Below are positions 1-44,432 of a DNA stretch of 44,989 bases, piece after piece (position 1 is the stretch's first letter; the number at the start of each line of letters is the position of its first letter). A program made the translations under genes and the position numbers. This stretch comes from a virus. The notes beneath the pieces were generated by a model that made no database searches, had not been told where the DNA came from, and saw only the letters and a list, made by a program, of their open reading frames with translations. Where the stretch lies: positions 1 to 44,989 of the IMG/VR virus record IMGVR_UViG_3300027902_000013. One strand, written 5' to 3'.

Positions 1-2681
1 ATCAACATATATTCTTCAGGACTTGGAATTGGATCCAGAGGAATAGTGCATTGAATCATATCAAATCTATCTTGTAGTAATTGAATAACTGACGACCACG
101 AATCTCCAACAGCAACAATACTTCCAACAGTATTCTGTCTCTTTGGACAAACAATATACTCACCACCATATTTTGAATAGTATTCTAACTTCAACCATTC
201 TTCAGATCCTGTTGGAGCTTTTATGTTTACCCACCCACAATCTAAATCCTTTGAAGTAATTATCACAGCGCTTCCAACAAACTTCTTCTTTGGAATAGGA
301 TCTATCGCTTGATTTCTTGCTAGACTATTAACCACTTCAGTAAAGTTAGTGTAAACTTCAGGTAGTATCCCCGATACATGAATGTTAGATAACCTCATCG
401 TAGTATCAAGGTAGTATGCATACACCTTATCAAACATCGCTTCGTAAGAGAAGAATCCCTTAGTCGAGCGGTTAGCAAATATCTTTAAGAGGTTGTCATT
501 GACACCCCTAAAAGGAGCAGGGATCTGTCCTATGTCGAGTATTTTTCCGAGATATGAGTAACCGCTCGTTATCCCAAATAACATATTTGATAAGTACTTT
601 CCATTGAACACAATTCCTTCGCAACCAAGTTCGATTCCATCTATCATATCCTCAACAAGAAATTCAAACTGTTCCGCGAAGGGACCTAACTTAAGTGCTA
701 CTTCCTGTAATTTTGTTCGGGATGTGAACTCATCAATATATTTCCATGTCTCTGATTCGCCTCTATACTTAACTGGTTTTACAATCTTATAAGTCTTATC
801 CTTTAAATAATTGGTTAGATTCGTAACACCTTTAACTATTACTCCAAAAGGAACTTTGATTCCAGCATTTATAGCTTCTTCTCTCATTACATACTTGTTT
901 AGCTCTAACTCTGCTGATTTAGAATCAGCACCAAGTATATTCTTTCCATTCTTAATTAAATAGTCTACTGTATCGCCTGTGTATACATCTGGACATAAAA
1001 TTACATCAGCTCTATCTACATATGACCAGAAGTTATCAATTATCGTTAGTTTGTTTAGTCCTTCGCCAATCCTAGGACGTTGAATATTCTGATCTGAACT
1101 ATAAAATGGACAAAAATACCACGTATTATCGTATTTTTTGGCCAAAGATTCAACAATTGATGGATACATTCCTCCTTCCATAACAAGCAAGTTACCAAAA
1201 GGTGTCTCTTGTGGATTAGAATCTACTTGCTTTTTAACTGATTTTCCATCAGTTACAGCAGGTTCAACTCCTACATTCTGTAGTCCAGCTGGTCCAATAT
1301 CTGGTTTTGGAAGTGGAGTATCTGTTGGAAGTTCTGGTATAGTAGTAGGATCATATGGTGTCATACCTGGTTGCATGATTGGAAACTCACCCCAGTTGAC
1401 AGGGTCCATATTATTTCTAACTCTTTCTTCATTGATTGAAGTAAATCCAACCTTTAAGTTGGTTTCTCGTTCTTTTAAAGCATACTCTGCGTCAACGGGA
1501 ACGTTCTCTTCGTATGCAACGAATAGATTATCATCATACAGCGGCATGATAGCTGAATTGATTCGTTCTTCTAGTCGTCTTAACTTTGGAGTAATAGTAT
1601 CTCTTTGATATCTAGTTTCAGACGTATCCATATTACTTCTATTTACTTCGTCAGTAGATATTTTACTCAAAGGAACACCATAAGCTCCTAAAATCTCTTG
1701 CATAGTAATTTTTCTACCAGTTACATACGACATTTCTTTTGGAGTCATTGTTATAGCTTCGTAAGTGAATCGTCTATCAAGAACTAATAGTTTTCCAGCT
1801 TTAGCAGGACCAGAATATCTATTCTTCCAATCTTCTTGAATTCTTTTAATCTCGTCTTCGTCAATTCCTTCTACATCAACTGACATGATTCCTTCAGGTC
1901 GACCAGCATTTCTTAATAAAGAAGTTTCAAACGCTTTAACTTGCTCATCAAATACAACACTTTGTGCTATAGCCGCCATTGGAGAGAAACCATAGTAAGA
2001 ATTTGTTGGATTAGATGTCTTCATATGAACAATTTCATCCACATCAAAAGGAATCTTATCTGGTCCTCTAATTCCAACGTATCCAGCTATAAACTCTGTC
2101 TTACTTGGAACGATTCTCATTAGTTGGGAGGGAAGTATCCATAGTTGCGCCGGAATCCCAAACTTATTTTTGATAAGATATACATATGTATTACCTGTCA
2201 GTTCTTGAAACAACTGTATCTCTTCAAACAACTGGAATCTTGTAGTCCACGGATTTGGATTATCTAACAATTCAATCCAAGGATGTTGAAATACTTCTTC
2301 TATCTCTACTGCGTCATTTAATTTCTTTGTTAAGACAGGATTAGTATGTAACCTAGCTTTAGTTTTTCTATCCACTGGTTTGGTTGCTAATATAGACTTC
2401 ATATTCTTCTTGGGTATCTTCAAGTATAACTTAAGCGGAACTTTAGCAACTGATTGTGCATTGATATTAGAACAGATGTAGACGTATGAACGGTACTGAT
2501 GTACTTGATACATCCAATCTTGATCTGGAGCTACTTCATGCGCGGGATATCCCCAAGGAAATTCAAAGAATGTTACTTTTCTTTCTCCTGGTCCTGTTCC
2601 TGTCTGGTCAACTGTTTTAACTACAGACCCACCATTTGGTAGTTTCTGGAGTTGTTCTGAACTTTGAACTTCTGGTGTCAT
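1..2681 (-). CDS. Portal protein fused to a C-terminal ATP-grasp ligase module (partial)
   Basis: One open frame runs from an ATG at 2681 past the left edge, giving at least 893 codons. I read it base by base across the junction at 1040-1210 and found no stop. Residues about 30-430 read as an HK97-type portal: the first 100 residues match the domain, a helical stretch with YYGFSPMAAIAQSV is present, and so is the region LRRLEERINSAIMPLYDD. A Pro-rich linker spans about 437-496. From residue 500 the protein resembles a GARS/PurD-like ATP-grasp: a Rossmann-like pre-domain (VILCPDVYTGDTVDYL), the nucleotide-binding strand YKIVKP (635-636), ELGCEGIVFNGK near 690, and a PurD-like tail (VGSIVAVGD). 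The SD AGAAGGA lies inside the end of the upstream zinc-ribbon gene. The portal forms the DNA entry vertex. The ligase substrate is unknown. Confidence 0.88.
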   Translation of the reverse strand, partial: MTPEVQSSEQLQKLPNGGSVVKTVDQTGTGPGERKVTFFEFPWGYPAHEVAPDQDWMYQVHQYRSYVYICSNINAQSVAKVPLKLYLKIPKKNMKSILATKPVDRKTKARLHTNPVLTKKLNDAVEIEEVFQHPWIELLDNPNPWTTRFQLFEEIQLFQELTGNTYVYLIKNKFGIPAQLWILPSQLMRIVPSKTEFIAGYVGIRGPDKIPFDVDEIVHMKTSNPTNSYYGFSPMAAIAQSVVFDEQVKAFETSLLRNAGRPEGIMSVDVEGIDEDEIKRIQEDWKNRYSGPAKAGKLLVLDRRFTYEAITMTPKEMSYVTGRKITMQEILGAYGVPLSKISTDEVNRSNMDTSETRYQRDTITPKLRRLEERINSAIMPLYDDNLFVAYEENVPVDAEYALKERETNLKVGFTSINEERVRNNMDPVNWGEFPIMQPGMTPYDPTTIPELPTDTPLPKPDIGPAGLQNVGVEPAVTDGKSVKKQVDSNPQETPFGNLLVMEGGMYPSIVESLAKKYDNTWYFCPFYSSDQNIQRPRIGEGLNKLTIIDNFWSYVDRADVILCPDVYTGDTVDYLIKNGKNILGADSKSAELELNKYVMREEAINAGIKVPFGVIVKGVTNLTNYLKDKTYKIVKPVKYRGESETWKYIDEFTSRTKLQEVALKLGPFAEQFEFLVEDMIDGIELGCEGIVFNGKYLSNMLFGITSGYSYLGKILDIGQIPAPFRGVNDNLLKIFANRSTKGFFSYEAMFDKVYAYYLDTTMRLSNIHVSGILPEVYTNFTEVVNSLARNQAIDPIPKKKFVGSAVIITSKDLDCGWVNIKAPTGSEEWLKLEYYSKYGGEYIVCPKRQNTVGSIVAVGDSWSSVIQLLQDRFDMIQCTIPLDPIPSPEEYML

Positions 2682-2687
2682 AGGTTA

Positions 2688-2885
2688 TTATCCTTCTGGA
2701 CAATTTTTACATTCCGTATTATTCAAACACCATGTCGGCATTTGTACTACTTTCTTAATAACAGCTAAATTGATTTCTAAATCTTTACTTTTACATTTTG
2801 GACATTCTAGATTCTGATCTGTAAGTCGTGTGAAAATGTATCCGCACCCCCTACAGTCAATTCGATACAATTGGTCTTTGAGCAT
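2688..2885 (-). CDS. Small zinc-ribbon protein between terminase and portal genes
   Basis: This 65-aa protein has a clear zinc ribbon: C12-x2-C15 (CRGCGYIF) and C28-x2-C31 (LECPKCKS). Two more cysteines in a CKNC motif sit near the C-terminus. Its start overlaps the end of the upstream amber-containing frame by 29 bases, and its stop lies seven bases before the portal ATG, so translation is probably coupled. Small zinc ribbons near packaging genes occur in other phages, but none has a role I can assign here. It could bind nucleic acid or act as an adaptor. Confidence 0.75.
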   Translation of the reverse strand: MLKDQLYRIDCRGCGYIFTRLTDQNLECPKCKSKDLEINLAVIKKVVQMPTWCLNNTECKNCPEG

Positions 2886-3384: not shown

Positions 3385-4857
3385 TTACATGTCCCAGTCA
3401 TCATTTTCTTCGGAATTTGTATCCAAAACCATCGAAAATAATCTTTTTCTTCTCGCTAAATTCGAGAAAGCTATCAGAATTGCGTCTAATTTATCGGGAG
3501 AGTGACCGTTCAAAAGTAGTTTTTCATCTGATTTTGGTTTCAATTTGTTGACGCCTTGACCACTTTTTAGTACCATTTCGGTCTTTACTTTGGAAATTTG
3601 TCTCTTTAAGTCATCATCTTTCGATAAACAGATAGTTTTTTCTTCCAGTCTACTTTTAAAAGCGAATGCACATTCTGTTCTCTTGTCTGCGAAACGGTTC
3701 CATTGCATAGCTGCGCCAGCTGAATGATAAGGAACTACTTTGTGTCCAAGTTTCTTTAACGATTGGATACATGCGCTTCCATACCCACCATCAGCGTCCA
3801 CAGCAGTAGATGTAACTTTGTTCTCTCTAATTGTCTCATCTAACTTAGCAACAAGCGCTTCATTAGAAATTCTTTGTTGATATACAATCTGTTTACATTC
3901 TACATCTTTTAATAGATATGCAGTAGTATAGTCTTGACCTTCACCACTTGGGTCCACGCCTAGCACGCATATATCTTTGAAGCCTTCTAATTTTTCTGGA
4001 TCTATGTCTTTCGCATCTCTATTCATAGCGTTGTCAACAGACTTATGACTGAAGAGAATATCTTTACTAGCTTCAGGAAAGACGCTTAAAACTTTCGCAA
4101 GGTATTCTGGAGATTCCTCTCCATACTCAGCTTTCATGAACTCAACCCATTCTTTTGAGGGTAAGTTCGGATTTACTACTTTACCCGCAAGAACGTTCGG
4201 CGTCTGAAGCGCACTTATGGATAGTTTGTTCCACCCATTACTACTATCCGGTGGTCCTGATAAGAAAGTATTGTAGAAATAACCATCCATTGAAATTGCA
4301 TTTCCAATTGCAAGTATACGAGATTCAGGATTTGTACACATGGTCAGCGCACCCTCAAATACGCTATCGTCTAGTCCTGCCGCTTCGTCTAAGCACAAAA
4401 GTAAATGTTTGGAATGCAAACCCTGGAAACGAGAACCCAAACTCTCATCAGCCTGTGACTTCTTCTCAGACGTATAACCCATAATGAAATGATCTGGTTC
4501 AAGAGGATCTTTCAACATCAAAGTTTCGTAGATTTTAACTCCAGTTGGAAACGGGATTTCTTTGAACTGAGAATAGATCTCTCGAAACAATATCGCAGCA
4601 CAAAGTTTGTAAGTAGGAGCTGTACAAATCACAATCGCATCTGGATATGAGAAGAACCACCACAAACAAATTCGGGCAGCAACAAAGCTTTTACCGCATC
4701 CAAACGCGGACTTTACTGTCGTTCGCGGCCACCGCATTACACTCCTCCAAATGTCGTATTGTTTCTCCCAACACTTTGTTTTAAAAAAGTAGGACTCAAA
4801 CAATTCTGGTTTGGATCTAAATTCTTTTATTACGTTTACACCAGCTGATTCAAGCAT
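3385..4857 (-). CDS. terL: Terminase large subunit (TerL)
   Basis: This is the packaging ATPase and nuclease. Counting from the ATG at 4857, Walker A is SAFGCGKS (50-57) and Walker B is LLLCLDEAAG (152-161, D157 E158). The RNase H-like nuclease starts at VLGVDPSGEGQD, and the acidic residue in SPDKLDAILIAF lies near the end. The length of 490 aa is typical. I chose 4857 over the ATG at 4872 because GGAG lies seven bases before it, and because ATG and the upstream stop share ATGCTTGA, a coupled overlap. It follows a homing endonuclease gene that separates it from the TerS-like gene. Confidence 0.93.
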   Translation of the reverse strand: MLESAGVNVIKEFRSKPELFESYFFKTKCWEKQYDIWRSVMRWPRTTVKSAFGCGKSFVAARICLWWFFSYPDAIVICTAPTYKLCAAILFREIYSQFKEIPFPTGVKIYETLMLKDPLEPDHFIMGYTSEKKSQADESLGSRFQGLHSKHLLLCLDEAAGLDDSVFEGALTMCTNPESRILAIGNAISMDGYFYNTFLSGPPDSSNGWNKLSISALQTPNVLAGKVVNPNLPSKEWVEFMKAEYGEESPEYLAKVLSVFPEASKDILFSHKSVDNAMNRDAKDIDPEKLEGFKDICVLGVDPSGEGQDYTTAYLLKDVECKQIVYQQRISNEALVAKLDETIRENKVTSTAVDADGGYGSACIQSLKKLGHKVVPYHSAGAAMQWNRFADKRTECAFAFKSRLEEKTICLSKDDDLKRQISKVKTEMVLKSGQGVNKLKPKSDEKLLLNGHSPDKLDAILIAFSNLARRKRLFSMVLDTNSEENDDWDM

Positions 4858-5869
4858 TATTAGTCTCCACAAATTGTTTAATTTTCTCTTCTACTTGTTT
4901 CATATCATCTAACTCTGTATACCAAATTACTAAAGTATCCCAACCATACTTCTTAAAATGATCTATTCTATCTTTTTCATGAATCTCTCTTGGAATATGA
5001 TTCCATTCTTCTGTGTGTCTCCATCCAAAATGTTCTATCAACTTCATTTGATCTTTATTAGTAAAGTCTGGGTTTCTCCTATCTATAATGTGAGTTTTGT
5101 TTCCGGTATATTTCCACTTACCCGGATACATCTCTTTCAAAAGATTTAAGATTATAGTTTCTGGTATATTAGGTCCTTCTGCTGCTACTGCGTCTGCCAT
5201 CTTTTGTAAAAATTCTGGATCTGTCCAACATTCTTTTCCAGCAGTAGAATGTCTTTCTAAAGTTTCTGGGCTATTATGAATCTGGAGCATTTTTTCTCTA
5301 TGTTTCGGATCTTCCCACTTTTTCTTTTGAGCTATCCTATTCTTTTCTATTGTCTCTGGTTTATTTAGTGATATCTTTAAACTCTTTCTGTGCTCTTCTG
5401 ATAAGGGTTTTTTATGTACTTCAGATAATCTTTTTCTATAATCCAGATCTTTCCAAAGATCTATACTTCGCTGTCTATTAACTTCTCTCTGTTCCGGTGT
5501 TGCTTTCTGTCCCTTTCTACCTTTACCACCGACTGCCCATTTGTTTCCTATTCCAAAAGTTTTTCTTCTTAAAGTTTCTTTCTCTGTAAGAACCATTTTC
5601 TTCTTGTTTGGTCCGCGCTTGTATCCTTTTGGTTTATGAGTTTTCTTTATGGTTGTTGGGCATTGTGAAGCGTATTGACTACAACACAAAGCTCCATTCT
5701 TAAACTGATACTTCCAAGGACGGCCGCATCCAAAATCACAAAGACTTGGATTAAGTCTTACCTTTTCTATCTTCAGTTTCTTTTTCCTATGTCCTCTAAT
5801 GAACCTATTTGGTTTTTTAGTATCTCTACCGATTTTAGTTTCTCTACCGCAACCACACTCGCAAAGCAT
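4850..5869 (-). CDS. EDxHD (Vsr-like) homing endonuclease between terS and terL
   Basis: This is a 339-aa free-standing nuclease gene. The N-terminus has two zinc-knuckle-like blocks (CECGCGRE and CDFGCGRPWKY...CCSQYASQC). The middle (about 125-225) has NUMOD-like DNA-binding repeats such as SEEHRKSLK and WEDPKHREKM. The C-terminal domain matches the EDxHD/Vsr-like fold of the I-Bth0305I type: E237 (IPETIILNLL), D268 (RNPDF), IEHFGWRH with H285, D300, and the final strand WDTLVIWYTEL. Its SD AAGGAGG overlaps the TerS-like stop, and its own end overlaps the terL start by eight bases. Two related genes are at 13602 and 36498. Activity is inferred, not shown. Confidence 0.85.
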   Translation of the reverse strand: MLCECGCGRETKIGRDTKKPNRFIRGHRKKKLKIEKVRLNPSLCDFGCGRPWKYQFKNGALCCSQYASQCPTTIKKTHKPKGYKRGPNKKKMVLTEKETLRRKTFGIGNKWAVGGKGRKGQKATPEQREVNRQRSIDLWKDLDYRKRLSEVHKKPLSEEHRKSLKISLNKPETIEKNRIAQKKKWEDPKHREKMLQIHNSPETLERHSTAGKECWTDPEFLQKMADAVAAEGPNIPETIILNLLKEMYPGKWKYTGNKTHIIDRRNPDFTNKDQMKLIEHFGWRHTEEWNHIPREIHEKDRIDHFKKYGWDTLVIWYTELDDMKQVEEKIKQFVETNNA

Positions 5870-6699: not shown

Positions 6700-6890
6700 T
6701 TCTTATCTCCTTGTATTGGAACTGTATTCTTATCTATCCAACTACATATACCTTCTCGTAGTACTGAAGATAATGTTGGAGGTTTTAATCCCTTGAGTAT
6801 TTGTTGAGCTTGAAACCTCTTAAAAGTATCATAGTGAAGCTTTGAGATACATACGCTGATTGTCTTATCATTCTTCAGATTGTTAGTCAT
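6696..6890 (-). CDS. Ribbon-helix-helix-like small protein
   Basis: The 64-aa protein has a short beta strand (KTISVCISK), then two helices (YDTFKRFQAQQIL and LSSVLREGICSWIDKN), the pattern of an Arc/MetJ-type DNA-binding dimer. It is the first full gene of the leftward packaging operon and is preceded by a 9-codon leader whose stop overlaps its start. It may regulate its own divergent promoter region. A second protein of similar build is encoded at 12026 in the opposite operon. Confidence 0.6.
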   Translation of the reverse strand: MTNNLKNDKTISVCISKLHYDTFKRFQAQQILKGLKPPTLSSVLREGICSWIDKNTVPIQGDKK

Positions 6891-6912
6891 AGTATTTTAA
6901 TGATCCTTTCAT
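6883..6912 (-). CDS. 9-codon leader ORF overlapping the RHH-like gene
   Basis: ATG at 6912 has the best SD of the region (GGAGGAG, nine-base spacer). It encodes MKGSLKYYD and stops with TAA at 6885-6883. The ATG of the RHH-like gene (6890) lies inside its last codons in another frame. The downstream gene has only a poor, distant SD of its own, so translation of the leader probably delivers ribosomes to it. Confidence 0.5.
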   Translation of the reverse strand: MKGSLKYYD

Positions 6913-7068
6913 AGTATTTCACTCCTCCCAGTATATATGTTCTATGTGTATCATATATTATCTTGTAAATAATTCATGTTCAGCAGGGGGATTTTCGTAT
7001 AAATAGTTATTTTACATATTCACTACCTAATATCATTCATCTTCAAAATGTAATGTATCAAATAAATC

Positions 7069-7094
7069 ATACATTTTCTAGTGGGGGTTCATGA
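7069..7094. repeat. 26-bp direct repeat, copy 1
   Basis: ATACATTTTCTAGTGGGGG begins this copy. It matches 7171-7196 at 25 of 26 positions, 102 bases apart, and both are followed by an AATTTAATTAG-like tract. It lies upstream of the leftward operon in gene-free DNA. Possible roles are regulator binding or phage promoter sites. Apart from the repeats I see no gene in 6913-7416. Confidence 0.7.
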
Positions 7095-7170
7095 TCAATT
7101 TAATTTAATTAGAATCGAATTATACCAGTATTCAATGATTCTAACTACTTACCGCTATTGACTAATTTTT

Positions 7171-7196
7171 ATACATTTTCTAGTGGGGTTTCATGA
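7171..7196. repeat. 26-bp direct repeat, copy 2
   Basis: This is the second copy, differing by one base (G to T in the G-run). It is followed by AATTTAATTAG. See 7069-7094. Confidence 0.7.
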
Positions 7197-7369
7197 ATTT
7201 TAGAATTTAATTAGTTTACAGTACAATTATTTCCGTATGTTTTAAGTTTCAAGTGCTAATTATACTGGTCAAGAACTGTCCCAAATTTTCAAATCAAGAT
7301 TTCGATTGTACAATTTTAACATCTAATAAAATTGTCAAGTCTTCAATAGTAATGTCAAGAACATATAAA

Positions 7370-7450
7370 TGAGTGGAGATAGATACCCACTCAATTCCTT
7401 TCTTTCTCCTTTCACTTGGGACTAGCTCTTCGGAACTAGTCCCATTTTTT
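7370..7450 (+). terminator. Tandem hairpins ending in an intrinsic terminator; possible small RNA 3' end
   Basis: Hairpin 1 is TGAGTGG/CCACTCA (7370-7376 with 7387-7393). Hairpin 2 is TGGGACTAG/CTAGTCCCA (7417-7425 with 7436-7444) with TTCG in the loop, followed directly by six T (7445-7450). This is a textbook plus-strand terminator, yet no plus-strand gene lies upstream within the window's divergent region. The transcript it ends may therefore be a non-coding RNA starting somewhere in 7100-7360. Confidence 0.75.
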
Positions 7451-7571
7451 ACGTTGTTCTTGTAGTGGATATCAATAATTACGTTGTCTTAGGATCCGAA
7501 CTATACTTGTAGCAAGATCGGATCTTACTTCGTTTAGATGTTAGATTTCAGTTAGAGGATTAGTTAGATAT

Positions 7572-7607
7572 ACAGTTAATTATATAGTTAATTATACAGT
7601 TAATTAT
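7572..7607. repeat. Three tandem 12-bp repeats (iteron-like)
   Basis: ACAGTTAATTAT, ATAGTTAATTAT and ACAGTTAATTAT follow each other without spacing, then ACA. The TTAATTA core is nearly palindromic. Tandem short repeats like this often bind initiator or repressor proteins. Confidence 0.8.
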
Positions 7608-8084
7608 ACATTGGGAATACATAATGAATAAGAAGAATTAGTTATGGTCGTGTGTTGGAATTGTGTGTGGAACTTGTAGTGTTTATATATGGTAATACTG
7701 AGTAGATCTGTTCCAATTTAGTTTAAACTTTACCCCTCCCCTCCATCGTTCGCAGTTCCGTTCGCAATCCACTTACATTCCAACCAGTTATCCACCCAGT
7801 GAGCACCGAACTGTCCACTACTACGTCTTGAACTACTACTTACACACTATATAGACTACTGAACCACCTACTGTCTACTACACAAGTCTACACACTGTCA
7901 GATACACTTGCAACACACCGCTTTACTTGGTTAAACTGAAGGATCCGATCTGTTTATCGTCAATTTAACAAGATCTACCGTAGATAGTCAGTTCTGAACT
8001 AAAAGATCCGATATATTATTATATTATATTATTATATATCGAAAAGACCACCCAGTATTCGATACACACGTCATCTATAGACTA

Positions 8085-42071: not shown

Positions 42072-44432
42072 TTACACGTGTTCTACTTGAACTAGTTCAG
42101 CTTTAAATAATATTGTTGTAGCAGATAAAGCAACTCCAAGAATCTGAATAACATTATTAGCTGCACTTGGAGCTGTTTGAGTAAGAGTATTTCCGGTAGT
42201 TCCTGTAATAGTAAGATATATCAATCCACCTATCGTCCAGTTCCATGAATCATCTCGAATTATACCACTATATAAGTAAGTTCCAGATGATCCATTACCT
42301 ATTGAAGCTTGTCCAACTATAACTGCAGCGTTAGCATTTGCAATAGCATCAGCTTTAGCTATGTTAGCAGTTCCATCAGACTTAATATAACAAGCGTCTC
42401 CAATATTTTGAGCTTGTGCAGAAGTTAGAGTTATTGTTTGTCCACTAACTGTATGATCAGATCCTGGACTTGTAAGAGTAGCTGCTAGTCCAGAATAACC
42501 CGAGATACCACTATATCCGCTAATTCCTGAGTAACCACTTGTTCCTGCACTTCCTCCAGCACCTGCTGTTCCAGAGTAACCCGAGATTCCACTATAACCA
42601 GAGATTCCAGAGTAACCACTCGTAGAAGTTAGACCAGAGTACCCAGATAATCCAGAGTATCCAGAGATCCCAGAGTAACCACTTATTCCTGAATAACCAC
42701 TAATCCCACTATATCCGCTAGTTCCAGTTAGACCAGAGTAACCGCTAATCCCACTATAACCGGAGATACCTGAGTAGCCAGATATTCCAGAGTAACCACT
42801 AATCCCGCTATATCCAGAACGTCCAGAGTAACCGCTAATTCCTGAGTAACTAGAGTATCCTGAGATTCCACTATATCCACTTGTTCCTGAGTAACCGCTT
42901 GTTCCTTGGGGTCCACTTCCTATTAGTTGAACAGATAGATAGTTCCTATAGTTCGCGGAATTAGCATATCCAGAACTTGGAGCACCCATTCCCATAAGTA
43001 CCCACAACTCTACATAATCAGTAGTTCCATTAAAATATAAAACATCTGAAACTTGTGAAGCTACACCATTAGCAAATCCATAGTTTGTATTTCCGTATGT
43101 AGTTCCTGTAGATTTTAAGTTACCATTTTGGTATAATTGAGCTTCAAAATAATCTCCTTGTTTCCCAGTTCCAATCCCTCCAAATTCAACTCTCGCAAGA
43201 CCATTTACGTAGTAATAACCAGATGTTCCTGGAGTAATTCTTTTATTAACAGTATCACATGTACAACCAACATTAAAATCAACCGTATCTATATTAAACT
43301 TTTCTGGCGTGTCTGAATCTGAAACTGTAAAATTTTGAGTTGCAGTTAAATACATTCTAGCAGCTATATTACCTGGAGCTTGTCCAGAGTAACCTGATAT
43401 TCCTGAGTATCCAGAAGCACCTTGATATCCAGCACCAGCATCATAACCAGAAATACCAGAATATCCACTAGTCCCTACAACCCCTGAATAACCAGACGTA
43501 CCAGTTGTTCCTACGATACCTGAGTATCCTGAGACTCCACTATAACCACTTATTCCAGAATATCCACTAGATCCAGGACTTCCAGATCCATCTATTCCCG
43601 AATAACCAGAGATACCAGAATAAGAACTAAATCCCGAGTATCCTGATGTACCATCTACTCCTTGAATTCCTGAGTAACCACTTGTTCCAATTATCCCACT
43701 ATATCCTGAGATTCCAGAGTAACCTGACGAACCTACAATTCCACTGTATCCTGAAATACCAGAATATCCGCTAGTCCCTATAATACCCGAGTATCCGCTG
43801 ATGCCTGAGTATCCACTAACTCCGCTATACCCAGATGTTCCTGTTATACCTTGAACGCCTGAGTAACCAGATACGCCGTCAGCACCCACACTCCCACTAA
43901 AACCAGAATAACCAGAAGTACCTGCATTTCCTTGTACCCCCGAATAGCCACTTGTTCCTACTAGTCCACTATAACCACTGATACCAGAGTAGCCAGATAC
44001 TCCACTGTATCCAGAAAGTCCGGAGTAACCACTTACACCATCTATTCCTTGTACTCCAGAATAACCACTTGTTCCAACTACTCCAGAATAACCTGAGACT
44101 CCAGAGTATCCCGATGTTCCAACAATACCAGAATATCCACTAACACCATCAACTCCGTAATGTCCAGAATAACCAGACGTTCCAACTATTCCACTATACC
44201 CACTAATTCCTGAGTAACCGCTAGCTCCATCTACTCCATAATGACCACTATATCCAGAGATTCCAGAATAACCCGAACCACCCAAAGACCAACCAGAAGA
44301 AGTACCATAATAAATCATTCCGTCAGCTTTGTTGTACAAAAGTCTAGCTTCATCATCAGAAGTCCACGACGGTAAACTATTAACTTCTTGTAAAATTAGT
44401 TTACCTTTTGAATTTATTCCATAGTATTTCAT
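42072..44432 (-). CDS. Collagen-like fibre with an inserted C1q-like domain
   Basis: The 786-aa protein has, after a 50-residue head (MKYYGINSKGKLILQEVNSL), Gly at every third residue for about 310 residues, in SGYSGISGYSG units with Thr, Val and Asp variants. Residues about 365-500 form a globular C1q/TNF-like domain (FNIDTVDFNVGCTCDT, GYYYVNGLARVEFGG, QLYQNGNLKSTG). A second collagen-like run follows, then a C-terminal head (GLIYLTITGTTGNTLTQTAP, VIQILGVALSA) seen in phage fibres. Unusually there is almost no Pro. It is probably a trimeric surface fibre. Confidence 0.82.
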   Translation of the reverse strand: MKYYGINSKGKLILQEVNSLPSWTSDDEARLLYNKADGMIYYGTSSGWSLGGSGYSGISGYSGHYGVDGASGYSGISGYSGIVGTSGYSGHYGVDGVSGYSGIVGTSGYSGVSGYSGVVGTSGYSGVQGIDGVSGYSGLSGYSGVSGYSGISGYSGLVGTSGYSGVQGNAGTSGYSGFSGSVGADGVSGYSGVQGITGTSGYSGVSGYSGISGYSGIIGTSGYSGISGYSGIVGSSGYSGISGYSGIIGTSGYSGIQGVDGTSGYSGFSSYSGISGYSGIDGSGSPGSSGYSGISGYSGVSGYSGIVGTTGTSGYSGVVGTSGYSGISGYDAGAGYQGASGYSGISGYSGQAPGNIAARMYLTATQNFTVSDSDTPEKFNIDTVDFNVGCTCDTVNKRITPGTSGYYYVNGLARVEFGGIGTGKQGDYFEAQLYQNGNLKSTGTTYGNTNYGFANGVASQVSDVLYFNGTTDYVELWVLMGMGAPSSGYANSANYRNYLSVQLIGSGPQGTSGYSGTSGYSGISGYSSYSGISGYSGRSGYSGISGYSGISGYSGISGYSGISGYSGLTGTSGYSGISGYSGISGYSGISGYSGLSGYSGLTSTSGYSGISGYSGISGYSGTAGAGGSAGTSGYSGISGYSGISGYSGLAATLTSPGSDHTVSGQTITLTSAQAQNIGDACYIKSDGTANIAKADAIANANAAVIVGQASIGNGSSGTYLYSGIIRDDSWNWTIGGLIYLTITGTTGNTLTQTAPSAANNVIQILGVALSATTILFKAELVQVEHV

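Follow-up and report, generated by a model that had tools for sequence, protein, structure and literature searches.

The stretch of viral DNA analyzed here (the window: IMG/VR virus record IMGVR_UViG_3300027902_000013, linear, 44,989 nucleotides) opens inside a long reading frame that the initial annotation interpreted as a phage portal protein joined in a single frame to a PurD-like ATP-grasp ligase. The locus raises the question of whether these two halves truly form one protein and, if they do, what a ligase attached to a portal ring might accomplish. The features relevant to the first part of this question are:

3..2681, minus strand: portal-ATP-grasp fusion ORF, 893 aa with an ATG start, truncated at its 3' end by the contig edge
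1359..2681, minus strand: HK97-type portal domain, residues 1-441 (PF04860, TIGR01537, phrog_2662 and phrog_12)
1206..1358, minus strand: Pro/Thr/Asp-rich linker, residues 442-492
3..1205, minus strand: PurD-fold ATP-grasp module, residues 493-893 (AF2 model, PDB fold matches and a profile match at E=1e-85)
2688..2885, minus strand: zinc-ribbon-like ORF of 65 aa that separates TerL from the fusion gene (CxxC pairs seen by eye)
3385..4872, minus strand: terminase large subunit, upstream of the fusion gene (phrog_2, E=5e-29; tblastn to phage terminases)

The N-terminal half is a complete portal of the HK97 type. PF04860 matches residues 126-422 (E=2.8e-53, 181.6 bits against a cut-off of 39.1), the portal_HK97 model TIGR01537 scores 135 bits against a cut-off of 112, and phrog_2662 matches this half at E=1.1e-60. 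As expected of an HK97-type portal, the gene also follows the large terminase gene, with one small ORF between them; the contig does not extend to the head protease gene. Elsewhere in the window, two ORFs (4850-5869 and 36498-37136) look homing-endonuclease-like by eye, one of them immediately upstream of the gene for the large terminase, and a glycosyltransferase-like gene (37693-38448; phrog_12406, E=3e-8) is flanked by tail-terminator-like and major-tail-like genes. A long ORF at 42072-44432 consists of collagen-like GTSGYSG repeats, and a similar repeat occurs in another contig (L122:7225-7893).

The portal-ATP-grasp fusion is a real single-frame protein, known from one contig, and the profile, relatives and fold described below bear out the identity of its two parts. 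The ORF reaches the left end of the record without a stop, and the contig ends within the gene, leaving the module about 14-15 C-terminal residues short by reference to L064, a stand-alone phage protein of 428 aa. The idea that the frame resumes at the right end of the contig (44446..44988, in register) was considered and dropped, as the ORF there looks fibre-like, the relatives stop about 14-15 residues past the window edge and the record is classed as linear. A hidden stop or frameshift near residues 437-500 had been named as what would undo the fusion, and none was seen. Codon log-odds trained on the other genes of the window favor the ORF frame across the linker (+9.1, +19.8 and +10.7 per 30 codons over residues 421-510), and the sole 30-codon block in which another frame scores slightly better (residues 691-720) is inside the ATP-grasp module, where both flanks align to relatives. 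The start-codon list holds no in-frame ATG, GTG or TTG between residues 440 and 498, the latter falling within the first strand of the module, so that, were the linker to hold a stop, the second half would have no start of its own unless initiation occurred at M425, M436 or M440 in the portal tail. An assembly or sequencing error that merged two neighboring genes would fit the restriction of the fusion to a single contig and the occurrence of stand-alone relatives, one of which (L092/L116) lies just downstream of a portal, but the codon signal is unbroken through the linker, the second half has no start codon of its own at residues 440-498 and no GC step was seen, making such an artefact very improbable.

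Two further features delimit the C-terminal half:

846..1205, minus strand: pre-ATP-grasp Rossmann-like region, about residues 493-612 (secondary structure of the model, alignment A1)
3..311, minus strand: GARS_C-like C-terminal domain, about residues 791-893, its end cut at the contig edge (alignments A1 and A2)

Searched alone, the 401-residue module gave no Pfam, PHROG or PDB match at the limits used. NCBIfam returned a weak PurD match (residues 572-697, E=2e-4), and a plain PurD profile did not clearly separate the module from shuffled sequences; the link was made via intermediate phage proteins, with the PurD-like protein of a Manatee Spring phage as the bridge to relatives. A degenerate motif scan recovered L064, which is 39% identical to residues 498-891 (E=5e-91), and a second motif scan together with an alignment-based scan added about a dozen other distinct stand-alone phage relatives at 24-30% identity. 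With the window's own proteins as queries, viral and genome contigs yielded either no relatives or L064 alone in single-protein and two-sequence scans. A weak tblastn match among phage records to a protein of phage arall annotated as nicotinate phosphoribosyltransferase (E=0.1) was treated as chance.

Alignment A1 comprises seven divergent sequences. For scoring the module, a profile was built from ten stand-alone phage relatives, leaving out the window and L064, and it scored the window module at 273 bits (E=1e-85), whereas the best of 300 shuffles reached 3.1. The same profile scored up to 48 bits on the Manatee-type family and 8-22 bits on six PurD proteins, and the portal part, included as a target, gave no listed match. 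AlphaFold (AF2) with 23 sequences modelled the module at a pLDDT of 90.4 and a pTM of 0.89; a model made without an alignment (pLDDT 32) was discarded. A fold search of the PDB with 569 matches at E<=0.001 agrees with the three-part ATP-grasp fold, in that the best 50 of the 569 are all ATP-grasp enzymes and the 15 top matches are all GAR synthetases (1vkz, 2yrx, 2yw2 and others; E 1e-19 to 9e-17), with PurT, L-amino acid ligases, carboxylases and PurK ranking below them. By sequence alone, a profile of the AlphaFold alignment recovers PurD chains at E=2e-19, or at best 2e-7 without the Manatee-type members. The predicted fold, the PDB matches and the relatives' profile together uphold the assignment of the C-terminal half to the ATP-grasp enzymes.

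The active site can be followed on three stretches (residue numbers of the module are the fragment position + 492):

744..779, minus strand: nucleotide-loop motif KPVKYRGESETW, with K635, R640, G641 and E644
624..656, minus strand: VEDMIDGIELG strand, carrying the Glu residues E677 and E684, which do not vary within the close group
393..443, minus strand: metal-ligand strands with E747 and D759-x-T-x-R763, conserved in the close group

K635, R640, G641, E677, E684, E747 and D759 are invariant in all 16 sequences of the close group (the window and 15 close relatives), position 644 is E or D throughout, and R763 is present in every member except L123. From the alignment and general knowledge, we take K635 to be the catalytic Lys, E677 and E684 the Glu pair, and E747 and D759 the metal ligands; the catalytic Lys, the Glu pair and the two acidic metal ligands of an ATP-grasp enzyme are in place on this assignment. 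In L123 (9381-11702) the D-x-T-x-R motif is split by an intein-like insert that begins with CFDEQTEILTDKGW, ends in AGN/C before CRFPAPLG, and by eye has the look of a LAGLIDADG-type endonuclease. Inteins are frequently located at active sites. An ExR motif in the first metal-ligand strand has been tied to a peptide-like ligase assemblage of ATP-grasps (PMC4431377); at its R position 10 of the 15 relatives have R, L064 and L107 have I, and the window, which lacks the motif, has M.

T761 of the fused copy stands where the usual ExN metal motif has N, which would suit a catalytically dead domain acting as a structural plug or as a DNA-spooling extension of the portal, and long C-terminal barrels are a feature of some portals. 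A dead domain is nevertheless improbable, given the seven invariant catalytic-site residues, the conservation of R763 outside the split L123 copy, and the occurrence of T at the ExN position in several stand-alone relatives as well.

The description of the module as PurD-like holds for the fold and fails for the PurD signatures. It shares with GAR synthetase (PurD) the whole fold, the domain order and several catalytic positions, but at only 12-15% identity in the fold alignments. The GGREHA motif found in six of six PurD sequences is not in the module, which also has MRLSNI in place of RFGDPE (R[FL]GDPE in five of the six), and its score with the TIGR00877 equivalog is 20.3 bits against a cut-off of 288. 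Synthesis of GAR is unlikely and was rejected on the missing GGREHA and RFGDPE motifs. L-amino acid ligases (BL00235, RizA) are likewise matched in fold (E 4e-16 to 8e-16) but rank under the GAR synthetases, the comparison being one of overall fold. Because the PurD signatures are absent though the catalytic residues are kept, we regard the module as a PurD-fold ligase rather than a GAR synthetase: it is folded like PurD and has the active site of an ATP-grasp enzyme, but its substrate is probably different from that of PurD.

Many of the relatives are found among virion genes. ATP-grasp enzymes had been stated to sit near portal or terminase genes in some phages; the neighborhoods recovered here agree as far as virion-gene clusters are concerned, one ligase lying just behind a portal, but all of these ligases are stand-alone proteins. 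The proposed scan of related phages for separate and fused forms thus yielded the separate form and no fused one, the portal fusion being confined to this contig among the ATP-grasp relatives found. In L092/L116 the order is terminase, portal, two very short ORFs, ligase, scaffold-like ORF and capsid, and in L064 it is ligase, homing-endonuclease-like ORF, Peptidase_S77 protease and Gp23 capsid; the window's portal had no match in the L064 record. The ligase follows long ORFs in L089, L101, L115, L117, L118 and L120, several times ahead of fibre-like genes (in L089, L101 and L115 the preceding ORFs are very long and the fibre-like genes come after). Around the L107 ligase there are glycosyltransferase-like and B12/radical-SAM ORFs instead of clear head genes. 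A B12-binding radical SAM ORF (PF04055, PF02310) at 6708-8030 of this 100-kb record is close to the stand-alone ATP-grasp gene.

Members of this family (L064, L092, L089, L074, L097, L107, L108, L117 and L121) resemble the module in having the full-length domain and the catalytic residues and, in several cases, a virion-gene neighborhood, and differ from it in lacking a portal fusion in the loci found. At E <= 0.1 they gave only weak PurD/GARS_A and marginal PHROG matches. In phages that are otherwise different, this ligase family, which has no clear match in the family libraries searched, turns up repeatedly near virion genes. Two of the ATP-grasp ORFs (L114:9719-11272 and L118:9668-11054) bear an added N-terminal stretch of roughly 90 aa, that of L114 (9719-10060) having no Pfam match. 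Separately, a closely related PurD-like gene (67-73% identity) occurs in 49 viral contigs (L005:8001-9329 and L007-L055); it is unannotated in GenBank phage MW202796.1, where it comes after a 505-aa ORF at the end of the tail-gene run.

The portal C-terminus is itself known to accept additional domains. Streptomyces phage Gilgamesh and Geobacillus phage GBK2 have portal-MuF proteins of the same portal family as the window's (about 25-30% identity) with the extra domain attached after the portal, but the cargo is MuF-type in those phages and an ATP-grasp ligase here. MuF is annotated in Gilgamesh, and by BLAST GBK2 and Roos have that C-terminus too. Five relatives of the window's portal range from 434 to 817 aa, and no signal of an ATP-grasp domain was found in the five related portals checked. 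The MW202897.1 portal (L124:1866-4103) has a C-terminal extension of ~300 aa without a BLAST match to the MuF-type domains compared. To judge from these sequences, the ligase is a new cargo on an already known fusion site. No earlier ATP-grasp-portal fusion was reported in the PMC literature searched, most subscription papers lying outside it.

Enzyme domains fused to portal or MuF proteins are predicted to be packaged and injected effectors (PMC5512222, PMC9503650), and the window protein has the enzyme-to-portal fusion that characterizes such effectors. The main rival to the mechanism that we propose below is accordingly one in which the portal carries the ligase into the procapsid, a head protease cuts the linker, and the enzyme is ejected with the DNA and, early in infection, modifies a protein or metabolite of the host. 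The MuF-type C-terminal domains on relatives of the window's portal are in keeping with this, as is the proposal that a phage R2K ATP-grasp clade modifies host proteins (PMC4431377), but a copy still bound to the portal would stay out of the cell, and we consider this route unlikely.

Instead, we tentatively favor, at slightly less than an even chance, a ring-tethered PurD-fold ligase that would work in the procapsid on a nearby protein. The portal half would build a dodecameric ring, with the ligase hanging from its C-terminal (crown) side. The stem, wing and crown of the T4 portal are inside the capsid (PMC9958956) and the crown of the YonE portal is its C-terminal domain (PMC12847820), so the ligases should face the capsid interior. 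The initial annotation had placed about 12 ligase copies on the DNA entry vertex; the copy number is retained, but the expected place is the capsid interior rather than the outer face, and roughly twelve ligases of about 45 kDa each would line that interior at the portal. Action before the head is sealed is favored by the reasoning that no entry of the portal itself into the host is known and that a sealed virion should lack usable ATP; the ligase would thus act during assembly, while ATP still reaches the procapsid interior. It would turn a carboxylate into an acyl phosphate and couple this to an amine, the most likely outcome being the addition of an amino acid or peptide to a protein located at the portal or close to it, with the portal itself, the scaffold, the capsid or an internal protein as candidate targets.

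This mechanism is favored by the conserved catalytic residues and by the stand-alone relatives located between portal and scaffold/capsid genes (L092/L116), shortly before protease and Gp23 genes (L064), or behind very long ORFs and ahead of fibre-like genes (L089, L101, L115). Against it are T761 in the ExN position, the single contig with a fusion and the neighborhood of L107, and a head-protease cut in the linker would free the ligase from its tether. If the portal ring itself were the target, the mark might hide it from portal-sensing host defences. The portal YonE activates SpbK (PMC12847820), and modification near portal or terminase has been suggested as a countermeasure against immune detection of the packaging apparatus (PMC9503650). 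However, the stand-alone relatives accompany different portals and PADLOC gave no match, and evasion of this kind seems quite improbable.

Returning to the procapsid ligase, it is possible, if doubtful, that this protein is the first case of an ATP-grasp ligase forming part of a phage portal and modifying virion proteins covalently from inside the procapsid. If true, this would be a mode of head maturation without description in the PMC literature searched. Portals are mostly viewed as channels and assembly nucleators, and about twelve copies of an enzyme domain anchored to the ring would tie head assembly to protein or metabolite ligation.
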